Assembly (NCBI RefSeq): GCF_020740795.1
Contig: NC_067290.1
Location: 15,172,001-15,236,000, forward strand
Source: Apus apus
Lineage: Eukaryota; Chordata; Aves; Apodiformes; Apodidae
Direction: 5' to 3'
Length of the DNA: 64,000 nucleotides
This document shows positions 7,601-63,418 of this stretch, piece by piece (position 1 is the first letter of the stretch; every line of letters begins with the position of its first letter). The position numbers and the translations under genes are program-made. The notes below the pieces were generated by a model. The model had not been told where the DNA came from and made no database searches. It worked only from the letters and a program-made list of their open reading frames with translations.

Positions 7601-10600
7601 TGTTGTCCCCTTCCACCCTCTGCAGCTGCCTGGGGAAGGTATCCAAGGAGCTGCCTCCTCCCCAGCACTTCATTCAGCCAAATGCACTCAAACCTAATGA
7701 AAGAGAAGAAAATACTAAAAGTGTTCTGTTGTGTTTTGTTTTTTTTTCCTGTGGAGTTACTGGCTGAGCTGTGTAGGTGCTGAGCCACCAAAAGAAAAAA
7801 GGGACTTGAGCTTTCCTCATCTTTGCACTGCTGTGGGCTGAGTGCTCGTGTAGTCTGATCCAAGAGCATCTCACCTGTGAGCAGCTGGGTAGTGCCTCCA
7901 ATCTCCCATGGGGTCCATCAGCATGGCAGGTTTTTATTTGGCTCTGGATCTTGGTGGGCATGGTCAGAGGATGATGGTGAGGACTGGGAGCCTGGGACAT
8001 TTGAGGAGTTCAGGTGCAAGCATAGCATTTTGGTAGTGCATCCTAGGAGAAGCATGTGGGCTGTGGAGGCCTGTGTCTCTGGAAGTGGGTGACCAGCAGA
8101 GTGGAAGCCCAAAAGTGCTCCTGACCTCCGCTTCTCTTGCTCACCCTGATACACGTTACCCAGCTTTAAATAAGTTGTTTATGTGAATTAGCAGAAGCAC
8201 AGGTGCCTGCTGCTTCCTCCCACCTCATCACACCTCCTCCAGGAGCTGGCTCGTGGTGCTGTTCCCACCAAGTCAGAGCTGGCACTTTGCAGCTCTCCAA
8301 AATTCCCTACAGGCTCAGCCTGCTTATATGCAGGCAGGGAAGAGGTTGCTGCTGCAGAAAGATCAAATGCTGGGCCATTTCCCTGTGGATTTTAGCAATC
8401 CTACCTGTCCATGGAAGAGGTTGCTACAGGAGCAAGGGAGCTGGCAAGAGCTGGATTGCAGCCTGATTGCACTGCTCGGTGCTCTCCCAGTAACCCTGAT
8501 TGACCCCGATTGACTCCAGGGGTTTTGTATTAAGGAACGAATGAACTATGCATGTTGTGGTGCTAAATGAGCATGTCAGGGTGGCCCTTTGCCTAATTAT
8601 CCAGCCTGAAACAGGAGCCTTGACAAGTTCCATTGAAAAATACTGCTGCTCCTGGGGCACCTGGTCATGACCCCCAGCGAGTGCCTTACGCTCAGGAGGG
8701 TCCTGTTACAGATTTGAGATGCTCATCACACCACATCCTAAAATTGCATTTGTTTTCTTGCTTTCCCCACGCCTTATAAGAAGCATTCCCTTTTTTTATA
8801 GTGCTTGTGTTGTCATGGGTGTGCTGCTGCATCTCCCTGTCTGCTCTCCCCAGTCAGTGCTGAAGCATTCCTCATTATATGCATATATATTATATTGCCC
8901 ACATCATCCTGGATGTGATATCACAAGTCAACAAGATGCAGGAGCAGCGTTCACTGGAGTCCTTTGTGGGACATGTTCCCCTTTTGCTTCTTGTGTACCT
9001 TCAGCCAGGTATAAACAAGCCTGTTCAGGTGGATTTCTTGCAAAGAGCTTGTAAATCACCGTATCAAATAATTTCCAGAAAGCCCTGGGCCTTTCTTTTC
9101 ATCACACTCCAAGACCTCCCACTGGGAAAAATGGGACCTCAAGCAGAACAGCTCCCCGGGATCTGATGCTGCACTGCTCAGGTCCAAGATGCCATCACTG
9201 AAGCTGGGGCTGAGACTGCCCTACTTGCAGAAGAAGCTGCAGCAGCTCCTGTGCTCCCCTCCAGCTGCAGGGAGGAATGCCTGCGAAAAAGGGAGCTTGA
9301 TTAGATGGAAAAAAACCTCTGTGAGATCAGGCTCTGTGCAGAACAGGGTGTCACTGATGGCAGCCGGGTATGGATCAGAGACAGAGGGCTGAGCAAAGGT
9401 TTTGTGCCGAAATTATTTCGGTGTCAGCACATAGATTTCATGGAAGAGGAACAAAGGGAGCAGGGAGGAGCACTGGGCTCCTGCCTCATCCGCCTTTGCT
9501 GCAGGTGGGACCTCTGGTGTGCTGAGCCTCCCTGCCCCCTTCCTGAGGGTCCATGCTCTCACCGGGAATGTCATTAGCTGTAGCTCCTGGCCAAAGAGGA
9601 TTAGCTGGGTTAAGAGGGTGCCTCCAGCTCAGCACTGTCCCAGGGTGAAAATCCCAGCCTGGGTCTGGCATCTAGGACTGGACATGGCTCCTGGGCAGCT
9701 CTGCCACCTCCTTCCAGGGTGACAAGCAGGATCTGGTTGCCCTAAGGAAAACCTGCCTCCTCTGGAGGACGGGCAATGACCGCAGTGGGGATCCAGCAGC
9801 TCACCACCCTGGAGAGCCCAGTGTCCTTCATCCATGGGATGTTCTACGTCCCTTCCCAGAGAGCTGTCTGCCTGTGTGTGGTGATGAGGCGGGTGGGTGA
9901 CAAGGAGGGACAGGCACTTATATTCTGCAGGCATCATTTTTCCATAGGAATCTGCTTCCTATTATTCATGCCAGGCTCAGAGGGCTGGAGCGTACCAATG
10001 GACAGGATCTGCAGCCCTTGGTGCAGCAGGGAGCAGCTGTTGCCAGTCACCCCTTTAAGGCTGTTTTCCATGACATCAGGCATCCTGTGGTGACAGCTTG
10101 GCAGGGTCCCCAGGGCTCAGCTGGCTGCTGAGATGCTGGGTCCCCTCTCCAGCGAAAGGAGGAGGAGAAGGATGCCATGCTGAAAGGTGGGTTAGACCCC
10201 AGTTTCCTACAAGAGGAGGAGATAGCCAGGAAAACAGGACACAGAGTGCAGCAATTCCTGGGTTTCTCCTGAATTTTTGTGCAGAACTCATGATTAAAAA
10301 AAAATAATAAAAATACCCCAGCCCCAGGGGTGTATATATTCAGGTCAGTCGCATAAACTTATCTAAGAGTGCTGCATATGACAGCCCGAGATGAAGTCGG
10401 CTTCGCCAGCGCGAGCCCTCAAATCCCTTTACAGATGGGTAATTAACAGCTCGCTGTGACTCAGGAGTTTTCTGTGCTGCTTAACCTGCTGTAATTAAGC
10501 CGGCTCCTGCCGCCGCGCTGGGTCAGGCTGGGCTCCCTGCCGGCTCCTCTGGCAAGCAGGAGGGGCTGAAACGGGGCGGAGGGCAGTGGGAATGGGTGAC

Positions 10601-40600: not shown

Positions 40601-43600
40601 TCCCTCTCCGACCCCAAGCCCATCAGCCCCACCGCTGAGGAGGCTGGCAAAGACAGGTTCTCCCTCTACCAGCACCCGCTGCTTCCCGGCACCCAGGTAT
40701 GTCAGTGTGGAGAACAGGCTTTTCCTCAGGGAACAGCCCCAGGAGGCACCTCAGGATGTTTCAGTTTCATTAGTGCTGCGACAATTAATATTTTAAAGGG
40801 CTGCGGATGGCAGCTGGCGGGCACAGATACAAGCAGCGAAGCTGGCAGCCAGAGGGAGGGCCCAGAGCTCCCCTGGCAGCAGGCAGGAGTTGCTGCTGGG
40901 TGACAGCATCAAGGCTGTCCCCTGTCCCCTGCCACAACCAGATCCCTCTCCTCTCCCAAGGAGCTGCCATGCATTACTCCATTTGGAGTTGCAGCAGCTC
41001 TTGCTCCAACCTTCACCCCCCCCAGATGGTGGTTGCCTTGGGCAGCCACGCACCCTGCAAAGAGCTCCAGGGGGAGCAATTCCTAGGGCAATTCCCAGCC
41101 TGGCCTCTCCCTCAAGCTATGCTGCCAAGGGCCCGAGGACAGAAAGCAGTTTTTGCAGCAGGCAGCAGCGTGCAGGCGGCCGGCCCAGCACTTGGCCAAC
41201 TGCCACCCCCGGTAATTACTCACAGAAAGCAGCCCTGCCTGTTACTTCCATCCTATTTATCAGGCTTTTACATAAACGCTGCTTCCTTGGTGTGTGGGGA
41301 GACACGTGCACAGCGGTCTGCCTCACTGTAACCCTGGGGCATGGGAGGAGCTCTGGGTACACAGGGTGGGGGGGCACAGGCAGACACCCACCCACACCCC
41401 TGACCTGCTGTCCCTTGGCTTTGTAGGTGGGGGCACTGCAGTCGAGCCCGCTGGCGCGCAAGGTAAAGCGGACACTGCCCAGCCCACCGCCTGAGGAACC
41501 CCACGTCCCCCTAGCCAGCCCAGCCACCTCCCAGCTCTACCTGAGCAGCCTGGCCACCAAGACCACCGCGCCAGTCACCAAGGCCAGCCTGCTGAAGGAG
41601 CTGGACCGTGACCTGAAGTTGGTGGAGCATGAGGCCACCAAGCTGCGGAAGAAGCAGGCAGAGCTGGATGAGGAGGAGAAGGAGATCGATGCCAAGTTGA
41701 AGTACCTGGAACTGGGCATCACCCAGCGCAAGGAGTCACTGCTGAAGGAGCGGGGCCACCCCTACCTGCGCTGCCCTGGGGACCGCCGCGACTACCTGTC
41801 CGACAGCGAGCTGCACAGCCTGCGCCTCGCCACCTACGAGGGAGCTGGCCTGCACCCCACGCCTGCTGGGCAGTACCCTGACTTTGCCACTGCCACCGCC
41901 GCCTCCTACGGCGCCTACCCCTACCCAGCCCCACCGGGCCCCACCGCCTTCCCACCAGCACGCCTGCAGCCCCCCCAGTACCCTGCAGCCAGCACGACTC
42001 AGGATGGCTTGCCGGCAGCCCCGCTGTCTGCCTTCACCTCACCTGGCACCTTCGCAGCCCCCAGCACTGCATACCCGGACCTGGGCACCCCAGGCCAGCC
42101 AGGCTTCCGGCCCCAAAACCCCTACCAAGCCCCCATTACCTTCACTGGGGTGGCCAGTGTGCCAGCAGCACAGCCCACCCTCTTCCAGACCCCAGCAGAC
42201 GTAGCTGGCGGGCACCAGAAGCCACGGCAGACCTCGCTGGCTGACCTGGAGCAGAAGATCCCCACCAACTACGAGGTCATCAGTTCAGCCACCAGCTCCT
42301 CCACCATTCCTGATGTCACCTTCAGTGCCACAACAGCAACCAGTGGCTACGAGCAGTACAAGGCGCCCGAGGCCCGGCCAGCCGAGAGAGCCGGTGCAGC
42401 ACAGGGCCCCTCAGCTAGCTTCTCCTCCGAGTCCCTCTACACCAACCTGGAGCAGAACATCCCCCGTAACTACGTGATGATTGAGGACATCAGCGAGCTC
42501 ACCAAGGAGAGCCCGGTAGTGGAGGGGCAGAAATCGGAGCCGGCAGGCACAGGCACTGACATTCGCCACGGCAGAGAGAAAAGCGACCTGGGGGATGCTG
42601 AGGGCTCCAGCAGGCCCTGCTGCTACACCAAAGCTGAGGAGGAGTCTGAGGAAGACATCTATGACCACCATGGCTCTGACTATCGAGGAAAGAACAGCTA
42701 CCACCGGGGCATGGAAAGCAATGGCAGGGTGTCAGGGAGCTCCACCGGCTCATCCTACTACTATGGGGATAGTGACTACCGGCACTCCTCACGGGCAGAC
42801 AAGCATGGCTCTGGCGTGGCACTGCCAAAGCATTCCTCCAAGAATCTGGCACCTGCCGTTGTCTCCTCAAAGCGCAGCAAGCACAGGAAGCAGGGCATGG
42901 AGCAGAAGATCTCCAAGTTCTCCCCAATTGAAGAAGCCAAAGATGTGGAGTCGGACCTGGCCTCCTATGCAGTGACAACCTCAGTTGGCAGCAGCAATGT
43001 GGCTTCCAGGGCCAAGAAGCTGCAGGATGAGATCACGTATGGCCTGAAGAAGAATGTCTACGAGCAGCAGAAGTACTATGGTGTTTCCAGCCGGGATCTG
43101 GTGGACGAGGAAGAGCGGGTCTACTCCACAAGCAGCAGGACCCGCTCCTCTGTCTATGGGGTGGAAAAGTCCTCTGGCCGGGAGGTGGGCGGCCGGAGCA
43201 AGTCCTACGAGCGGGAGGTTATAGAGCGCTCCCAGAAAGGCAGTTCCAAGCCCTCATCCCTTGGCATGAGCCAGAGCCGTGGGCGAGCTCCCATCCGCAC
43301 ACAGCCCTCGGAGGAGGAGAGCCCTGTCAGCCCCCTGGGGAAGGTGGTGGGAGGGACGCGCGCTGTGGGGGGGGCCTGGCCCTCAGTCGGCGGGGGACCC
43401 CTGCTCACAGTTCTGCTCCAGCCACTCGTTGCCTGATGTGCAAGAGCACATCAAAGACGTGCCAAGGAGTCACTCGTACAAGCACGAGGAGGGCTACGGC
43501 ATGGACGATGCCCATTGCGTTGTCTCGGACAGTGAAGGTAACGGCTCCCTGTGGTGATCACCCCAGAGCATGGCTTCCCGGGGCATGCCTGTCTGCTCGT

Positions 43601-49061: not shown

Positions 49062-52000
49062 ATGGAGCCGCCGGTGAGGGGCTGGGGGGAGAGGGGTGCG
49101 GTGGTCTCACTGCCCGGGTCCAGCCCCACCGTCCCGCTGCCTCCCGCCCCCTGCCCCGCCGCCCCCTACCCCGCCATTGCACCCTCGGGACCGCCCAGAC
49201 CCCCGGCATCTGCCTGCACCCAGGGCTCCGGCAACTGCCCTGGCCCTGCACCCCCGGTGCCCCAGTCATTGCTCTGGCACCTTCCTAATTCACCCATGCA
49301 CACCCGGAACTGCTCCCGAAACTGTCCCTGGTACCCTCCTAATCCTCCACATGTACCCCAGGAACTTGACCTCCGGTACCTCTGTAACTGCCCTGCTCTG
49401 CACCCCTGGTACTGCCCCCAGTACCCCAGTAACTGCCCTGGTACCTTAATACCCTCCCTGCACCCCCGTAGCTGCCCCAGAACTGCACCCCTGGTACTGC
49501 CTTGATACCTCAGTAACTGCCCCCGCACTCCTGATGTCCCCTAAGTACCCCACTAGCTGCCCGCAGCACTTTCTGGTACCCGCATACCCACTAGTACCCT
49601 GGTAACTGCCTGCACCCCCAGTACCTCCCCCACTACCCAGTAACTGCCCCTCTACCCTTGGGCTGCCCCAGTACCCTCCCCATGTACCCTGGTGCCACAG
49701 TAACTGCACCCTTTGCTCCCCACCCAAGCCAACCCTGGTGGGTCCTGCAGGTGTTGTCGAGCACTGAGGAGGTGGTGGAGCTGTACCGGGAGCTGAGCCG
49801 GCACCCGGGGCTCAGCACCGCCTGCCTTGGCCCTGATGTCACCACCCAGTATGGGGGCAAGTACTGCAGCCTCTACACCGGTATGGGAACGGGGAGGGGG
49901 ACAGGGGCTATCCAATGGGGCCTCTGCCTGCTGGGTGGGGATGTGGCAGGTGTCCTCACCCTGCTTCTCACAGAGTGGTCGCAGCGGGACCTGGCACGGG
50001 CTGAGAACATCAAGTTCTGCCGCCAGTACCTCATCTTCCATGACGGGGCCTCCATCGTCTACTCGGGGCCTGCTGGCACCTGCTCTGAGATCAAAGATGA
50101 GTGAGTCCTGTCCCACCCCCGTGCTGGTGTCCCCTTGGGCTGCTGATGGTGGGAGGCTGACGGGCACCCACCCACCCGCAGGCTGCTGAGCCGGGAGTCC
50201 CCCAGTGGGGCGCTGAAGGCCGTCCTGCGCAAGGTTCCTGGCAAGGAGAAGGAGAAGGAGAAGGAGAAGCAGTTCCTGGAGGTGAGGATGGGGCTGAGGG
50301 GGACTGGACCATCCCTGGGGCTCGGGGCCAGCTCCAAGCTGCATCTGGGGGCTGCCCCGGTGTCTGTGCCCCCAGGTCTGGGATCAGAACCGCAAGGTGA
50401 AGAGCATCGACCTGACAGCACTGGACAAGCATGGCAGCGTCTATGATGATGGTGAGGGGTTGGGGGTGCCAGGGATGGGGAGTCCTGGTGGGACGGTATC
50501 CAGTGCCTGATCTGTCCCCGTAGACCAGTTTGGCTGCCTGGCCTGGTCACACTCAGAGACTCACTTGCTCTACGTGGCGGAGAAGAAGCGTCCCAAGGCC
50601 GAGTCCTTCTTCCAGAGCAAAGCTCCTGAGCTGGGCACCTCTGACGAGGATGTGGGGCATCCAAAGAAAAAGGATGTGTCCTTCAAGGTGGGGTTCTCCA
50701 GCCCTGGGGCAGGCAGGGCCAGTGGGGCAGCCTTGGGGCTGATGGGGCTGTGCTGCAGGGTGAGCAGTTCGTGTACCATGAGGATTGGGGGGAGACTCTG
50801 AGCAGCCGCAGCGTGCCCATCCTCTGCATCCTGGACATTGAGGGCAGCAGCATCTCGGTGCTGGAGGGCATCCCAGAGCACCTCTCCCCTGGCCAGGTGA
50901 GGATGGGGAGCCCCAGGGAACTGGAGCAGGGAAGGTTTGGGGGCCAGCAGCAGGCTAAGACGCTCACCCCTTCTATCCCCACAGGCTTTCTGGTCCCCTG
51001 GTGACACCGGTGTGGTGTTTGTGGGCCGGTGGCATGAGCCTTTCCGCCTGGGGCTGCGGCACTGCACCAACCGCCGGTGGGTCCCAGGGGGGCACCCTGC
51101 CCCACAGCCAGGCCCCCCCTGGCCCCACCATGACTCCTGTCTCTGCCGGCAGGTCAGCACTTTTCTACGTGGACCTGATGGGTGGGAAATGCGGTGAGTG
51201 ACAAGTGTCCTGACACCCCCCCCTGCCAATGCCCCAGCTCCTTGCAGCCCCTCACCGTCCCCTTGTGCCCTTGCAGAGCCACTCTCCGAGGACACCAGGG
51301 CCGTGTGGTCCCCGCGGCTCAGCCCTGACCACTGCCGCATTGTCTACCTGGAGAACAACAGCCTGGGCCCCCACCAGCAGTGCAGCCGCCTCTGCATGGT
51401 GAGCAGCACTGGGAGGGACACTGGGGAGACACCAAGGAGGTGGCAGGATGCCCGTGGCAGGGCAGGGGCTGGCAGGAGGGCAGTGGTGCCCCCTCCCTGG
51501 GATGCAGGAGGGGCAGGTGGGCTGAGACCCTGCAAAACTCATCCCATCTCATGTCTCCTGCAGTATGACTGGCACACCAAGCAGACCAGCACAGTGCTGG
51601 AAGCTGTGCCACGACAGGCGTGGGGTGAGTAGGGCCCGTGGGGGGGGTGTTGAGTGGGCACAGGGGGGTATTGAGTGGGCACACGGGGATGCTGAGCACC
51701 AGCCCTCTCATTACAGGTGCCTTCCCAGGCATCTACTGCGGGGCACTGCCGGGGCTGTGCTGGGCGGCCGACAGCCGCAGACTGGTGCTAGACACAGCCC
51801 AGCGCAGCCAGCAGGTGAGGACTGCTGGGCCTGGGGGGCTGGGGGAAGGCCAGGGCCAGGTCAGGGCTCTGCTGGACTCTGCCCTTATGCCCCTAGGACC
51901 TGTTCGTGGTGGACACGTTGACGGGCGCCACAACCTTGCTGACGGCCGGTGAGTGCCAGGCTGGTAGGGCTGTGCTGAGTTGGGGCTGAGAAGGGGGTGA

Positions 52001-53668
52001 CACCTGCAGGTATGACTCCCCCCCCCCTCTCCAGATGCCCCCCGGGGAAGCTGGTCTGTCCTCACCATCGACCGGGACATCTTGGTGGCCAGGTTCTCCA
52101 CCCCTAGCTGCCCCCCAACTCTGGTAAGGTGACATCCCACTCCCCAGCATCCACCATCCCCTCTGGGTTCCAGCACTGACCCTTCTTCCTGCACAGAACG
52201 TGTCAGTCCTGCCCGGCGCTGGCCAGGAGGCACAGGCACGGTGGGTCTGCCTGCAGGATGCACCCCCCGTGCCCAACATTAGCTGGGGCATCCGCACCCT
52301 GCAGCCCCCGCCCGAGCAGGAACACCCCCAATTTGGTGAGTGACCATGTGGCCAAGCTTGGCTCTGCCACCACTGCCAAGCTCTGACCCCCCTTCTCAAG
52401 CCCCCCATCTCTACAGGGGGCTTGGACTTTGATGCTATCCTGCTGCGCCCCAGTGAGGGCCCCGCTGCCCAAAAGCCCCCCTTGGTCGTGATGCCCCATG
52501 GTAAGAGCTTGCTCCTCACCCCACTGTGCCCCCTACCCTGGCTGGGCAGAATCACCCCCCTTTGCCTTTTGCAGGGGGTCCCCACTCCGTCTTCACGGCT
52601 GGGTGGATGCTGTACCCGGCAGCGCTCTGCTGCATGGGCTTCGCTGTGCTGCTGGGTGAGTGGTGCTGGGGGGGCCCAGGTGCTGTTGGGTGGCACAGCA
52701 CCCATGGTGGGGCTGGGCAGGGGGCAGGAAGGGCTCTGATACCATCCCCCCCCCAGTGAATTACCGTGGCTCACTGGGCTTTGGCCAGGACAGCGTGGCC
52801 TCCCTGCCAGGCAATGTGGGCACACAGGATGTGGGTGATGTACAGGTATGACACTGGCATGTGGTCCTGACCCCGGGGCACCCCATGCTTCTGTGGGTGC
52901 CTCTGAGGAGGAAAAGCAAGGCCACCTGCCTCAGCAAGTGTCCCCCATGGTGGCAGCTCTGTGTGGAGCTGGTGCTACAGGAGGAGTCATTGGATGCCAG
53001 CCGGGTGGCACTGGTGGGGGGCTCACACGGGGGCTTCCTAGCGTGCCACCTCATCGGCCAGTTCCCTGACACCTACCACGCCTGCGTGGTCCGCAACCCT
53101 GTGGTGAACATCGCCTCCATGGTGGCCACCACCGACATCCCTGACTGGTGAGTACCGCTGCCTCCAGGGCCCCTCTGCCTTGGCACCCGCATGTGTCCCC
53201 ATCCCTCTTGCCTGCAGGTGCCTGACAGAGACGGGGCTGCCCTACACAGCTGACACCCTGCCAGACCCCACCCAGTGGATGGAGATGCTGCACAAGTCGC
53301 CCATGCAGTATGTCAACCAGGTATGTCCCTGTCCCTGTCTCAATCCCCACTGGTGGTGCCAGCACTGAGGCTGTGCTGCTCCCGCAGGTCCGTGCACCCG
53401 TGCTGCTGATGCTGGGGGAGGATGACCGGCGTGTGCCCCCCAAGCAGGGGCTGGAGTATTACCGTGCCCTCAAGGCCTGGGGGGTCCCCACGCGGTGAGT
53501 AGGGTGCTGGGTGCCCCGTTGGATGGTGCAGGCATGGCACTTACCCACCTTTCCTTTTCCAGGCTGCTCTGGTACCCGGGGAACAACCACGCGCTGGCCG
53601 GCATTGAGGCCGAAGCCGACGGCTTCATGAACATGGCGCTGTGGCTGCTCAAGCACCTGCAGTGCTGA
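49062..53668 (+). CDS. APEH: Acylaminoacyl-peptide hydrolase (acylamino-acid-releasing enzyme)
   Basis: Cytosolic S9C serine peptidase that releases N-acylated (mainly acetylated) amino acids from peptides. Exons: 49062-49073, 49751-49880, 49974-50100, 50182-50281, 50376-50451, 50524-50687, 50759-50896, 50985-51076, 51153-51193, 51277-51398, 51564-51624, 51717-51814, 51897-51948, 52035-52123, 52197-52335, 52417-52500, 52575-52655, 52757-52845, 52957-53147, 53218-53320, 53388-53494, 53563-53668. All are GT/AG and in phase; 733 aa (human 732). The N-terminal two-thirds is the beta-propeller and the rest the alpha/beta-hydrolase domain, with HGGPHS, nucleophile Ser588 (GGSHGGF, codon 53023-53025), Asp676 (GEDDRRVP) and His708 (NNHALAG). 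The start MEPP is followed at once by an intron, as in mammals (MERQ). A (GAGAAG) run in exon 4 gives a KEKEKEKEK stretch. Confidence 0.97.
49240..49700 (+). repeat. Degenerate minisatellite in APEH intron 1
   Basis: Repeated approximate units of the type 'cctggtacctcagtaactgc' with Pro-codon-like C runs (ggtaccctcc, ggtactgccc, ggtaccttaa and so on). They fill most of intron 1 (49074-49750). No coding content. Confidence 0.6.
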
Positions 53669-54000
53669 CAGCCCCCCTGCCACCGCAGCCCCCCAATAAA
53701 CAGTGTAGCTCAGCACTCCTGGTGTCTCCCACAGTGCTCCTGGTGCCTCCCACAGTGCTCCTGGCACCAACATCACTTCTGCTCCCAGCACCCCAGGGGT
53801 TTGGGGCCACTGGGTCCCCCTCCCTCACAGGTCGGCATTTGTGCCGCTGGGGACATGGTGTGGGCTGCAGGCGTGGCGGGTGGCACTGGAGGGACTGCAG
53901 GGCTGGCACCGGCCCCTCTTACGGGCTGCTCATGTGGTTTGGCAGCCTGCCCGGGCTGAGCAGCCAGCGCCGGTGGCCCAGCACGGTGGAGCAAGGCCCC
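53669..54000 (+). other. Short spacer between the tandem APEH genes
   Basis: 332 bases between the APEH stop and the paralogue's ATG. It holds the APEH poly(A) signal, then about three copies of a 22-base repeat (cacagtgctcctggtgcctc, 53705-53770), then moderately GC-rich sequence with no TATA box and no obvious CpG island. The paralogue's promoter must lie here, unless it uses read-through from APEH. Confidence 0.6.
53695..53700 (+). terminator. APEH: APEH poly(A) signal AATAAA
   Basis: Canonical AATAAA 26 bases after the APEH stop codon, giving a very short 3'UTR. Confidence 0.85.
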
Positions 54001-57000
54001 ATGGCCTCAGCAACCGAGCAGGGCATGGAGGTGGGTGAGGGGGTCCCAGGGACTGTGCAGGTGGGCACGGCCCTGTTTTTGGGGGGTGGGTACAGGCAGA
54101 GAGGTGAGTTGACCCTCACCAGCCTGCCTCTCTCCCACTGCCCAGGCGGCTGCCAGCCCAGTCGCCTGCTACCGGGAGCTGAGCCAATTCCCTGTCGTCA
54201 CCCGCGCTGCCCTGGGGGCCACCACGGGGTTACAGACTTTCCTGCTCTACACCGGTGAGTCGAGGGCTCGGCTGCCCCGGTGCTCGCAGCCCATGGAGCC
54301 CGTGGGGCAGGCGCTGACAGCCCCCTCCCGCAGAGTGCAGCCGGCCCGACCTGCCCCGCCGCCGGCTCCTGCGCTTCAGCCGCCACTACAGCCTGCAGCG
54401 AACCGGTGATGGTGGCCTCGCCGTCAGCCAGACCGCGCTCAGCACCGAGATTCACCACCAGTAGGGCACGGATGGGCTGCGGGAGGGTGCGGCATGAGCG
54501 GTGCCCACGGCATGGCCGGTGCCCGCGGCGCGGCCAGTGCCAGCAGCGTGCCGCCCGCCGCAGCCCCCGCTCCCGCCCGCAGGCTGCTCAGCCAGGACTC
54601 GCCCTCGGGGCAGCACCGCGCCGTGCTCAGCCGCTGCCCGCGCCAGGGCCACGAGCTGTTGGAGGTAACACTGCGGGGCTCACCGGGGGAGCCGGAGCGC
54701 CCGCACGGAGGGTGGGTGGGTGCTGCAACTGTGGCTGGTCGGTGCTGACCCTCGGCCCCCAGGTGTGGGGCAGCGGCGGGCGCAGCCACAGCGTGGATCT
54801 CACGGCGCTGGGACAGCATGGGGAGGTCTACACAGAGAGTAAGCCCCTATCCCCACGCCCCCTGCCCGCCACGCAGGCCGCTGCAGAACAGCTGGTGGCC
54901 CCGGTGGCTGCCCCGTGCCCGGGCGTGCCTGCACCAGGTGGGGCTTTGCCATCCTCTTACCGTGCCAGGGCCCTTTGCCTGCCTGGCCTGGTCCCACTCT
55001 GAGACGCGGCTGCTGTACGTGGCTGAGAAGATCCGGCCCAAACCACGGCCCCCCAGCCCCTGGGATGTGCCAGGAGCAGCCAGGCCCGCCGAGGAGGATG
55101 ACAATGAGGAGGTGGGTGCCATGTGCCCCAGGAGTGTGCCATGCACCCCAAAAGTGTGCCAGGCACCCCCTGAGCGTGCCATGCATGGAGGCCCATGCCT
55201 AGGGCCACCAGCCATGGGGCTAGCGCGCTGTGCCACAGGGTGAGCAGTTCGTGTACCACGAGGACTGGGGTGAGGCACTGAGCACCCGCAGCGTGGCTGT
55301 CCTCTGTGCCTTGGACATGGAAGACAGCAGTATCTCAGTGCTGGAGGGTGTCCCAGAGCACCTCTCCTCTGGCCAGGTCAGGACAGGGAGTGGGGGGAGC
55401 CCCGGGGTCCATGCCAGGGCTGTGGGATGAGCCCAGCTGTTGCACAGGCCCTGTGGTCGCCAGAAGACCGCGGCGTGGTATTTGTGGGCTGGTGGCATGA
55501 GCCCTTCCGCCTGGGGCTGAACGCCTGCACCAACAGGAGGTGAGTCCCCTGGCACCCAGTGCTATGCAGGGATGTCCATCCCATACCTGTGGGGTTCAGC
55601 ATGGACACAGGGCTCCAGCCTAACCCACATCTCCTCCCCAGGTCAGGGATTTTCCACTTGGACCTGGCCAGTAGGCACTGCGGTGAGTACCATGGATGTG
55701 GGAGGTGCCCAGGGTCCTTGGGGTCCCCAGGGTGCTGACCCCCCCACCCCCCACAGAGCTGCTGTCGTCTGAGCATGGGGTTGCCTTCTCTCCCCGGCTG
55801 AGCCCTGATGGCCATCACCTGCTCTACCTGGAGGGGGACCTGGGGGGACCCCACCGGCAGTGCCTGCGCCTGCGCATGGTGAGGTGCACTGCAGGTGCCA
55901 GGCATGGCTGTGCTGCCAGCAGTGCCCAGCCACACAGGGGTGGGATCAGCCTTCCATCCTCCTGCCTCAGTTTCTCCATCCTCACCTGCTGGCTCTCCCC
56001 AGCTCACCTGGCAGACAAGGCAGACTGTGACGGTGCTCGACGTGGTGCAAGAACCCACGGAGGGTGAGGGCAGCACGGTGGCTAGAGTTGGGCGTTGCTG
56101 GAGGGCCGGGACCCCAGGCTGGGTTCTTGTGGCCTCCGGTGCCCATGACCCCATCTCACTGGTGCTCTGTTCCTCTCACAGCCTTCACTGGTCTCTACGG
56201 GGATGCCCTGCCACCTCGGTGCTGGGCAGCTGACAGCCGACGAGCCATACTGGGCACCCCGCAGAAGAGCCGCACGGTGAGACCTGGGGATGGGCAGGGA
56301 CAGGGACATGGCCCCTGCCCTCTACAGTGACATGGCTGCCTGTGCTCTGACCCCTTACAGGACCTGCTGCTTGTGGACACGGAGACAGCCACTATCACCA
56401 ACCTGACGGCCAGTATGTGCTACCAGGCTGCCTGCGGTGCTCCAGTGAGCATCCACAATCACTACTAGCCTGTCTCTCTTCCCAGGGTCATCCAAAGGGT
56501 GCTGGGAGCTGCTCACTCTTCAGTGGGACCTGCTGGTGGCCACCTGCTCAGCCCCACACTGTCCCCCCAGCCTGGTGAGCAGAGCCCTGGCACCACGTGG
56601 CGTGGCACGGTACGGCATGGCACAGCACGGCATAAGCAGGAACAGCACAACCTGGCACAGTATTGCACAGCCTGGTGTGGCACAGCCAGATCCACCATTG
56701 TTATTGCATGGCACATTATGGCAAGCAACAGCAGAACCTGGCACAGCATGCCAGGGCCGGGTACAGCATGGCACAGCCAAGGACAGCACAGCATGGCGCA
56801 GGGCAGTGTGACCAGGCACGACACGACACGGGCTGGCACAGCACAGCATGGCATGACACAGGGTGGCACTGGATGGCACTGCACAGGGTGGCACTGGCAT
56901 GGCACAGTGTGTCGTGGCACAGAGTGGCTCTACAGAGCACTGGGACCGTGGCACAATGGGGTCGATTCCACCTCGGTAGGACCCGCTGCCCTGGGGCGGG

Positions 57001-58511
57001 GGTGCCACCTGCTGCCTGTCCCCAGGTGGTGGCTGTGCTGCCGCCAGCAGGCCAAGAGCTGCCGCTCAGCTGGGTACCGGTGGAGGACGCCCCAACAGTG
57101 CCCGGTGTCACCTGGAAGACTCTGACGGTTCAGCCGCCCTGCAGTGGTAAGCACCTGGGGGTCCCTGCCGCACCTGGGTGCCGGGAGCCGTGGACCCTCG
57201 GGTGCGGGGGTGGGTGGGGAGTGAGTGCCAGGTGGTGGGTGCTGACAGGACCCTTTCCCTGGCGCAGGCGCCCAGGCCTTTGAGGCCCTGCTGATGAGCC
57301 CACCGGATGGCACTGTGCCACACCCCCTGGTTGTGTGTCCCCACGGTGAGTGAGGGGACAGAGGGGTCACCGTGGTGGCAGTGGTGGCACTCTGGGTGAC
57401 GTCCTAACTGGCCCCAGGTGGCCCCCATGCCGTCTTTGATGCCCGCTGGCGCCCAGGCATGGCTGCGTTGTGCCAGATGGGCTTTGCTGTGCTCCTGGGT
57501 GAGTGCTGGGGGACCCAGGGACATGTGGCATCTGTGCACTGCTGGGGATGTGGTACCTATGGCCTCTGTGTCCCCAGTGAACTACCGTGGTTCTGTGGGC
57601 TTTGGCCAGGCCAGCATCAGCTCCCTGATCTCCTGCATGGGTGAACAGGATGTGGCGGACACCCAGGTGAGGGTTGGGGGGCTGGTGGGTGCTGATGGTT
57701 GGTGATGACAGTGGGTGCTAATGGGTGGGTGCCCCATGGGTGCAGCTGGCAGTGAAGCAGGCCCTGTGCAGTGAAGCCCTGGATCCACACCGCCTGGCCC
57801 TGCTGGCTGGTTCCCACGGAGCCTTCATCGCTCTCCACCTCCTCATCCGTGAGCCAGAGCGGTACAAAGCCTGTGCCCTGCGCAGCCCCGTCTCCAACCT
57901 GCCTGCATTGCTGGGCACCTCTGACATCCCCGACTGGTGAGTGCCACCCCTACCCATGCCGTGCCATGCTGTGCTGCATCCCCACGGCACCCACCAACAC
58001 CGCTGTGCCACAGGCGCTACACCTCCCTGGGGCTGCCCTACTCCTTCGAGCGGGTGCCCCATGCTGAGGAGCTGGCCATCATGCTGCTGCGCTCGCCCAT
58101 TGCCCAGGCAGCCCAGGTAAGGCAGGGGCAGGGTGCCCATGGGATGCTGCGTGCTGGGCTCCAAGCACCCACCACGAGCTGTGCTGCAGGTGCGGACGCC
58201 GGTGCTGCTGTGTGTGGGCGCCAGGGACCGGCGTGTCAGCCCCACACAAGCACTGGAGCTGTACCGGGTGCTGCGGGCCAAGGGGGTGCCAGTACGGTGA
58301 GTGGGGTGCAGGGGTGTGGGAGCAGGCAGGGATGCCTGAGGTGCTGGCTGAGCATCCTGTCCCACCCCGCAGGCTGCTGTGGTACCCAGAGGGTGGCCAT
58401 GCACTGGCCGGTGTGGAGATAGAGGCTGATGTCTTCAGGAACTGTGCTCGCTGGCTCCTCCAGCACCTGGGGCAGCCCCAGCAGGGTGGGATGGGCCAGC
58501 ACAGCCCCTAG
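54001..58511 (+). CDS. APEH tandem paralogue (acylamino-acid-releasing-enzyme-like)
   Basis: Predicted S9C peptidase. Exons: 54001-54030, 54146-54254, 54334-54460, 54583-54664, 54763-54838, 54969-55111, 55239-55376, 55448-55539, 55642-55682, 55757-55878, 56003-56063, 56182-56276, 56361-56412, 56486-56574, 57026-57146, 57268-57345, 57418-57498, 57578-57666, 57746-57936, 58014-58116, 58190-58296, 58373-58511. All are GT/AG with every phase identical to APEH; 721 aa, no internal stop. Start MASATEQGME (ATG 54001; a second ATG at 54025). Fourteen of 22 exons have exactly the APEH length, and the rest differ by multiples of three. The hydrolase domain keeps HGGPHA, Ser565 (AGSHGAF), Asp653 (GARDRRVS) and His685 (GGHALAG). 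The propeller half, above all exons 2-5, has diverged strongly, and the Lys/Glu-rich loop of exon 4 is absent. Activity is plausible but substrate preference is unknown. Confidence 0.9.
56585..56940. repeat. (GGCACAGCAT)n-like low-complexity repeat in intron 14 of the paralogue
   Basis: Irregular tandem array of short units such as ggcacagcatggcaca, ggcatggcacag and cagcacagcatgg across about 350 bases. It explains the overlapping long open frames on both strands here, which encode Cys/His/Ala-rich nonsense. Confidence 0.75.
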
Positions 58512-58637
58512 AACCTGTGGTGGCCTTGTGGTTGTGCAGGCCTAGGGTGACCACTGGCCCCAGAGACTACACCAGGACCAGGGGATGAAGTGAGCACAGC
58601 CAGGGCAGGACAGGATGTGAGTTGAGGTTTGCTGTTA

Positions 58638-58643
58638 AATAAA
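58638..58643 (+). terminator. Poly(A) signal of the APEH paralogue
   Basis: AATAAA (gttaaataaacatg) 127 bases after the stop. Cleavage is expected about 10-30 bases downstream, where it meets the MST1 3' end. Confidence 0.8.
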
Positions 58644-58690
58644 CATGTGAGATCCCAGGCAGTGCCAACATCCTCTGCCATGGCAGGGCC

Positions 58691-58696
58691 TTTATT
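58691..58696 (-). terminator. MST1: MST1 poly(A) signal
   Basis: TTTATT on the + strand, i.e. AATAAA on the - strand, 39 bases past the MST1 stop. Expected cleavage (about 58660-58681) overlaps the predicted 3' end of the convergent APEH paralogue. Confidence 0.8.
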
Positions 58697-58734
58697 GCAC
58701 AGCAGCAGCTGTGCCAGACTGGGGCTGAGCCAGC

Positions 58735-63418
<4,684 letters not shown>

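Follow-up and report, generated by a model that had tools for sequence, protein, structure and literature searches.

An intact second acylpeptide hydrolase gene beside APEH in the common swift, probably an old vertebrate APEH-2 with a distinct S1-pocket signature

The DNA analyzed here (the window) is a stretch of 64,000 nucleotides from the common swift, Apus apus (assembly GCF_020740795.1, contig NC_067290.1, positions 15,172,001 to 15,236,000 of the forward strand), and positions 54001-58511 of the window hold a complete gene related to APEH, its upstream neighbor. APEH is usually viewed as one vertebrate enzyme, which removes N-acetylated residues and aids the clearance of oxidized proteins. 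We consider it probable that the gene at 54001-58511 is the common swift APEH-2, an S9C acylaminoacyl peptidase that belongs to an old vertebrate pair, lies beside the other member (APEH-1), has a remodeled S1 site and, by analogy with fish APEH-2, may cleave oxidized proteins. As far as sequence can tell, the gene is intact and conserved across birds, keeps the catalytic and acyl-binding residues tested, belongs to APEH-2, and has Arg-Tyr in place of the Cys-X of APEH-1. Birds and reptiles would thus have an anciently separate second form that is seemingly missing from mammals. The paralog itself is already known, having been described in 2015 in chicken and zebra finch, and also in teleosts (PMC4422685, available sections); a preliminary description of this DNA, made from the letters alone, had left open how widely it was known, and in databases it goes under "acylamino-acid-releasing enzyme-like" and other names. 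The new content is therefore modest: its occurrence in squamates, amphibians and coelacanth, the signature in the S1 helix, and a correction concerning the propeller. In the open-licence literature searched, mostly at listing level, neither the Arg-Tyr signature nor an APEH-2 from squamates or amphibians was found to be reported.

The exons of both swift genes were assembled from splice signals. APEH-2 has 22 coding exons that encode 721 residues with no internal stop, and APEH, assembled likewise, has 22 exons and 733 residues. Exon-end phases are equal between the two genes in 22/22 cases, 14 of the 22 exons have the same length in both, and the lengths of the remaining eight differ (APEH-2 versus APEH) by +18, -21, -18, -21, -3, -18, -6 and +33 bases, which bears out the exon plan of the preliminary description: APEH phases kept, lengths identical or differing by multiples of three, and no stop. 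Its statement that all splice sites are good holds insofar as every intron of both genes is GT-AG, but three APEH-2 donors look weaker (exon 3 gtaggg, exon 4 gtaaca, exon 7 gtcagg). Swift APEH-2 matched the Pfam domains APEH_N with 106.2 bits and Peptidase_S9 with 95.6 bits (cut-offs 23.1 and 22.6), and swift APEH was also well above both cut-offs. The top database match was the RefSeq protein "acylamino-acid-releasing enzyme-like isoform X2 [Apus apus]" (P0001), at 100% over residues 1-676. The features discussed below are as follows, with the basis of each in brackets.

49062-53668, + strand: APEH (APEH-1), the upstream neighbor, 22 exons, 733 residues (exon assembly, Pfam, tree)
53932-54000, + strand: optional 23-residue N-terminal extension from the ATG of the RefSeq model (P0001 start; open frame)
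54001-58511, + strand: APEH-2 coding region, S9C peptidase with N-terminal arm, propeller and alpha/beta hydrolase (exon assembly, Pfam, P0001 match)
55239-55539 (55239-55376 and 55448-55539), + strand: exons 7-8, unusually similar to APEH exons 7-8 at 50759-51076 (nucleotide and residue identity)
57339-57341, + strand: Pro484, porcine Pro506, strand-breaker residue (alignment; role from PMC12514842, available sections)
57342-57425 (57342-57345 and 57418-57425), + strand: HGGP oxyanion-loop codons, split by intron 16 (exon assembly, alignment)
57812-57814, + strand: Ser565, catalytic nucleophile, porcine Ser587 (alignment)
57821-57823, + strand: Ala568 in GSHGAF (alignment)
57923-57925, + strand: Asp602, porcine Asp624, salt-bridge partner of Arg677 (alignment)
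58015-58020, + strand: Arg607-Tyr608, porcine 629-630, S1-pocket helix, APEH-2 signature (alignment)
58226-58228, + strand: Asp653, catalytic, porcine Asp675 (alignment)
58232-58234, + strand: Arg655, porcine Arg677, which binds the acyl/P2 group (alignment; role from PMC12514842, available sections)
58398-58400, + strand: His685, catalytic, porcine His707, in exon 22 (alignment)
58540-58588, + strand: alternative last exon of RefSeq isoform X2 (P0001 C-terminus match)
58638-58643, + strand: AATAAA poly(A) signal of APEH-2 (sequence)

The alignment held 60 APEH-2 and 21 APEH-1 proteins, namely near-full-length rows that we chose from 248 fetched proteins, plus pig and the two swift proteins; 33 of the APEH-2 rows are avian (swift and 32 near-full-length proteins chosen by us from 116). 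In porcine numbering, swift APEH-2 keeps Pro506, His507-His511, Ser587, His588, Asp624, Trp628, Asp675, Arg677 and His707. The motif HGGPHA and the triad Ser565, Asp653 and His685 named in the preliminary description are thus all present, the triad aligning with porcine Ser587, Asp675 and His707. All of these sites but one are constant in the 33 bird rows; the exception is position 511, with 32 His and one Cys. Two rows outside birds depart from this pattern, apparently because they are incomplete models: amphibian P0146, where 675 is Arg and gaps follow, and squamate P0212, which is gapped at 508-511.

At porcine positions 629-630, Arg-Tyr was found in all 60 aligned APEH-2 proteins (birds, squamates, amphibians, coelacanth and teleosts), versus Cys at 629 in all 21 APEH-1 proteins, followed by Leu, Met, Ser, Thr, Val or Ile at 630. 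A wider count, taken over the 248 fetched proteins less four mosaics and with the coelacanth protein counted as APEH-2, gave Cys in 28/28 APEH-1; among 216 APEH-2 proteins, 197, the pigeon rows P0022 and P0059 included, read Arg-Tyr and two Arg-Phe (Phrynocephalus and Pogona), 12 had the stretch absent and five had unrelated letters. The four mosaics, whose second half is APEH-2, also read Arg-Tyr. When a class-diagnostic column was defined as one with a single residue in at least 93% of APEH-2 and that residue absent from APEH-1, eight of 672 columns qualified, five of them in the hydrolase (619, 623, 629, 630 and 679), and only 629 and 630 among the eight are invariant in APEH-2. Given that residues 625-632 form the S1-pocket helix and that Arg677 sits on the acyl group (PMC12514842, available sections), we propose P1 choice as what differs between the two enzymes.

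The net charge (H+K+R minus D+E) is +15 for swift APEH-2 and +1 for swift APEH-1, with whole-protein ranges that overlap (5 to 37 in APEH-2, -8 to 9 in APEH-1). For fish, net charges of +16 and +14 for APEH-2 and of -9 and -1 for APEH-1 have been given, and positive charge has been proposed as an APEH-2 feature (PMC4422685). A structural model of the hummingbird ortholog P0003, not of the swift protein itself, has a mean predicted local distance difference test score (pLDDT) of 81.0 and its best match is porcine APEH (7px8), with template modeling (TM) scores of 0.87/0.91 at 48% identity; the sequence of swift APEH-2 matches 7px8 with 680.6 bits. Domains, triad with HGGP loop and the fold of the P0003 model all place the protein in the S9C acylaminoacyl peptidase family, and tree placement, positive charge and Arg-Tyr at 629-630 place it in APEH-2 (cluster 2 of PMC4422685), the teleost link being not firm by itself.

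The main tree was built from 55 proteins and 747 columns without an invertebrate outgroup. Bird and squamate APEH-2 were joined at 100/99, and the APEH-1 proteins of sharks, ray-finned fish, a caecilian, pig, squamates, turtles and birds formed one clade (100/98), outside which the amphibian (99/99), coelacanth and teleost APEH-2 fall. In this tree with APEH, which the preliminary description had suggested building, the swift gene groups with squamate APEH-2 and lies outside the APEH-1 clade. A smaller tree of 41 rows joined teleost and sauropsid APEH-2 at 91/76. Judged from these trees, the duplication took place before birds and squamates parted and probably before living bony vertebrates arose; because sharks sit inside APEH-1, the simplest reading is a duplication before living jawed or bony vertebrates radiated. 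We favor a history in which APEH was duplicated before the living bony vertebrates diversified and losses followed in some lineages. In earlier work with amphioxus and Ciona as outgroups, APEH fell into two clusters, and APEH-2 of chicken and zebra finch grouped alongside that of teleosts (PMC4422685).

The best 120 of 618 database matches to the swift protein were all bird proteins by name, and 116 of them were orthologs, many of them partial models, with 59-100% identity over the aligned part, in keeping with the earlier claim that the gene is intact and was kept. The other four (P0074, P0094, P0095 and P0097) are APEH/APEH-2 mosaics, APEH-1 first and APEH-2 for the rest, with differing join points; gene-model fusion is the probable origin. 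Read-through splicing would be an alternative origin, which the phases common to both genes would allow. Five relatives' models turn into unrelated letters just past DIPDW at the exon 19/20 junction, where they probably read into the intron. Searches with a kiwi piece and with the worm-lizard ortholog reached squamates, caecilians, axolotl, coelacanth and teleosts. Among the best 120 of 1094 matches in the worm-lizard search (at least 601 bits; candidates capped at 7995), no row was named as a mammal, turtle or crocodilian; amphibian and coelacanth members were listed there at 624-655 bits, and APEH-1 of squamates, sharks, ray-finned fish and birds at 601-623 bits. Two turtle rows from the kiwi-piece search are APEH-1 by the tree, and one odd entry, P0138 (Chrysemys), matches none of three references well over its first 150 residues and is APEH-1 in the rest. 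Within the matches listed and the gene models behind them, the search suggests that APEH-2 was lost in mammals, turtles and crocodilians; a single APEH is given for all analyzed organisms other than teleosts and chicken, hence for mammals too, in the available sections of PMC4422685. Equal length of the source sequence was used as a proxy for both genes lying on one contig, and the lengths were equal in 5/5 species for which the matches listed included rows of both genes with such a length: Atlantisia (13,770 bases), Paroedura, Tiliqua, Microcaecilia and Lampris. In Paroedura the database source names both as isoforms X2-X4 of one name. Close adjacency of APEH-1 and APEH-2 is strongly suggested in Atlantisia and Paroedura only.

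Swift APEH and APEH-2 share about 52% protein identity overall. The propeller, which the preliminary description held to have diverged far more than the hydrolase core, is identical at 227/443 positions (51.2%) versus 140/259 (54.1%) in the hydrolase, a divergence ratio of 1.06; the ratio is similar or larger in APEH-1 comparisons, at 1.09 for pig versus swift and 1.55 for swift versus Zonotrichia. The claim therefore fails, and a propeller-driven change of specificity is rejected as stated. Conservation is poor in the first ~190 residues (72/181 identical before exon 7; 24-48% of residues in exons 2-5), and exons 7-8, within the propeller, are the best conserved of all (61/76 residues, 80-81%). 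In the hydrolase, exon 20 is one of the least conserved (11/34, 32%). The Nei-Gojobori ratio of nonsynonymous to synonymous divergence (dN/dS) between the paralogs is 0.47 overall and, by domain as had been proposed, 0.50 over the propeller and 0.42 over the hydrolase. With dS at ~0.95 (0.9-1.0), probably saturating, and a third-position GC content of 79-82%, these ratios show constraint in a coarse way only. An altered substrate preference, which had been argued by way of the propeller, remains reasonable, and any change of specificity more likely stems from the hydrolase pocket than from a rapidly evolving propeller.

Other explanations of the gene were weighed against this evidence. Calling it a tandem duplicate of APEH, the preliminary description implied a duplicate that arose in the bird lineage and diverged fast. 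In its favor, the genes adjoin and have a common exon plan, and their proteins agree at 80% of residues over exons 7-8. However, squamates have the same paralog, firmly joined to the bird gene, Arg-Tyr is common to squamates, amphibians, coelacanth and teleosts, and a clade of bird APEH-1 and APEH-2 costs 241 log-likelihood units (approximately unbiased test, p-AU 1.92e-45); a bird-only duplication is rejected under the model used, and we find this history scarcely credible. Much the same must be said of a decaying gene or an annotation artifact. Poor models among the relatives would suit it (the four mosaics, the five with unrelated letters, and one named LOW QUALITY), but it is contradicted by broad intact conservation: the gene is intact in the swift, the catalytic residues are all present in 32 further near-full-length bird proteins of the alignment, and dN/dS between the swift paralogs is 0.47.

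It is also unlikely, in our judgment, that APEH-2 is an ordinary acylpeptide hydrolase with no special substrate, either duplicating the work of APEH-1 or retained for reasons of dosage or tissue expression. Such a role fits the retention of the triad, the oxyanion loop, Pro506, Asp624 and Arg677, and the predicted fold, the same as that of APEH-1, but not the near-invariant class-specific residues in the S1 helix, the shifted net charge, or the kinetics of fish APEH-2, which are unlike those of APEH-1 (PMC4422685). A catalytically weak or non-peptidase member with some other role, for example a hetero-oligomer partner of APEH-1, appears quite improbable. The bird-only Ala after GSHG, the RefSeq isoform without the catalytic His and the low kcat and kcat/Km of icefish APEH-2, about two orders of magnitude under APEH-1 (PMC4422685), would all agree with it; the triad, however, is retained in 33/33 aligned bird proteins, and lost activity would not require that.

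Several observations weigh against the reading we prefer, an old APEH-2 with fish-like function. The order among APEH-2 groups is weak in the main tree, where teleost and sauropsid APEH-2 join at 50/30. The coelacanth protein carries Arg-Tyr yet sits beside APEH-1 (97/99), and masked BLAST also places it nearer APEH-1; depending on the root, it is the deepest APEH-2 or a deep side branch of APEH-1, and Arg-Tyr could therefore be ancestral. With a tree of vertebrate proteins alone, the root, and with it the polarity of the Arg-Tyr change, is provisional. In the P0003 model, loop 613-619, just before the Arg-Tyr pair beside the S1 helix, has pLDDT below 50, so the direction of Arg607 is not visible. 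After GSHG, Ala stands in 33/33 bird APEH-2 and Gly in the other 48 aligned proteins, a bird-only change. Unlike teleost APEH-2, which has Ile or Val at 506 in 11/11 rows, the bird protein keeps Pro506; because the teleost active site differs and the join is weak, it is a long step from fish biochemistry to birds. Finally, mammalian APEH-1 has also been linked to oxidized proteins, according to abstracts.

If swift APEH-2 is nevertheless the enzyme proposed here, its substrates would be acylated or oxidized peptides, hydrolyzed through the usual Ser-His-Asp mechanism while Arg655 holds the acyl group. Arg607-Tyr608 and the positive charge may shift P1 choice toward bulky, acidic or oxidized side chains, and bird APEH-2 might help to clear oxidized proteins, as fish APEH-2 does. 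The two-residue signature makes the suspected special job testable and could explain the oxidized-protein activity of fish APEH-2. Since two related serine hydrolases may share substrates and inhibitors, it may not be safe to extend mammalian APEH biology, or organophosphate biomarker work, directly to birds.

The start and the end of the coding region deserve separate comment. P0001 begins MWFGSLPG at an in-frame upstream ATG (53932), which adds 23 residues relative to the start at 54001; the latter (MAS) is matched in 20 of the 68 bird rows P0002-P0069, and the other 48 begin differently. Upstream, the exon 1 frame stays open for ~140 codons, through the 3' end of APEH as far as a stop at 53605, and therefore the true start is not fixed by sequence alone. 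At the other end, the C-terminus of P0001, ...VPVRPRVTTGPRDYTRTRG, matches the DNA after an alternative acceptor at 58540: exon 21 is spliced there, and the tail (RPRVTTGPRDYTRTRG) is encoded past this acceptor in the 3' untranslated region. Isoform X2, a RefSeq model, thus skips exon 22 and with it loses the catalytic His, and it is possibly an inactive form of APEH-2. Because a model made from homology alone would hardly give such a splice, it is indirect evidence of transcription.

Exons 7-8 were also set apart by their nucleotide identity between APEH and APEH-2, 85% in exon 7 and 77% in exon 8 versus 33-71% in other exons. Over these two exons, bird APEH-1 and APEH-2 share a mean of 80%, versus 72% and 70% with their squamate orthologs; over the rest of the protein, the values are 51% versus 71% and 58%. 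Swift fourfold sites agree at 20/29 in exons 7-8 versus 90/190 elsewhere (Fisher p 0.045, post hoc). A tree of exons 7-8 from 32 of 36 chosen rows (four were too short there and were dropped) joined bird APEH-1 to sauropsid APEH-2 (99/99). Forcing APEH-1 together in these exons was not rejected (p-AU 0.203), the neighboring residues 100-189 behaved alike (p-AU 0.109), APEH-1 as a single clade was rejected in none of nine alignment windows, and the site-pattern contrast for conversion was not significant (3:1 versus 55:7, p 0.41). An old gene conversion between APEH-1 and APEH-2 in exons 7-8 is possible and is offered as a lead.

Joined together, these parts would describe a second vertebrate acylpeptide hydrolase whose P1 specificity comes from the almost invariant Arg-Tyr of the S1 helix. 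The gene would have arisen before the living bony vertebrates radiated and would still adjoin APEH-1 in birds, as it probably does in squamates, amphibians and ray-finned fish; mammals, turtles and crocodilians would have lost it, and in birds its exons 7-8 would have been converted from APEH-1. We put forward this combined account tentatively, as a possibility and not as the expected outcome. If it is true, mammals, turtles and crocodilians must handle the probably oxidized or acidic substrates of APEH-2 in another way.

Along the + strand, the window holds the end of a Bassoon-like gene, then APEH (49062-53668) and APEH-2 (54001-58511). The Bassoon-like coding sequence near 43071 (+ strand) is what we take to be BSN, and a downstream gene on the - strand, with four kringle motifs (60740, 61292, 61728 and 62150), is presumably MST1. 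The gap between the APEH stop and the ATG at 54001 is only 332 bases long and contains an APEH poly(A) signal, at 53695. Viewed by eye, APEH-2 and the kringle gene seem convergent, with poly(A)-like signals ~50 bases apart (58638-58700). A ~180-base stretch, also noted by eye, is tandemly repeated in nearly exact copies at 59340-59680, in an apparent intron of the presumed MST1.

The closest known systems are the fish APEH-2 enzymes and mammalian APEH-1. In the literature covered, oxidized-protein endohydrolase activity is reported for APEH-2 only from Antarctic fish, where APEH-2, but not the APEH-1 tested, cleaves oxidized bovine serum albumin (BSA). Acetyl-Phe-p-nitroanilide (Ac-Phe-pNA) was accepted by just one of three enzymes assayed, icefish APEH-2, with the low kcat and kcat/Km given above (PMC4422685, available sections). 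Like the cluster 2 proteins of that work (Trematomus bernacchii, Chionodraco hamatus, chicken and zebra finch), the swift protein is excluded from the APEH-1 clade, its join to teleosts being weak, and has Arg-Tyr at 629-630; its charge of +15 lies between the fish values of +14 and +16. Unlike fish APEH-2, bird APEH-2 has Ala after GSHG, and the swift and Gymnodraco APEH-2 proteins are 56% identical in the hydrolase and 41% in the propeller. A roomier active site has been ascribed to Pro506 (PMC12514842, available sections), and bird APEH-2 may combine this roomier site with the APEH-2 S1 helix. With APEH-1 (EC 3.4.19.1, S9C, porcine 7px8) it has in common the fold, as modeled, the triad, the oxyanion loop, the Arg677-Asp624 pair and the exon plan; it differs from APEH-1 in lacking Cys-X in the S1 helix, in its ~52% identity, in its higher net charge and in standing apart from the shark-containing APEH-1 clade.

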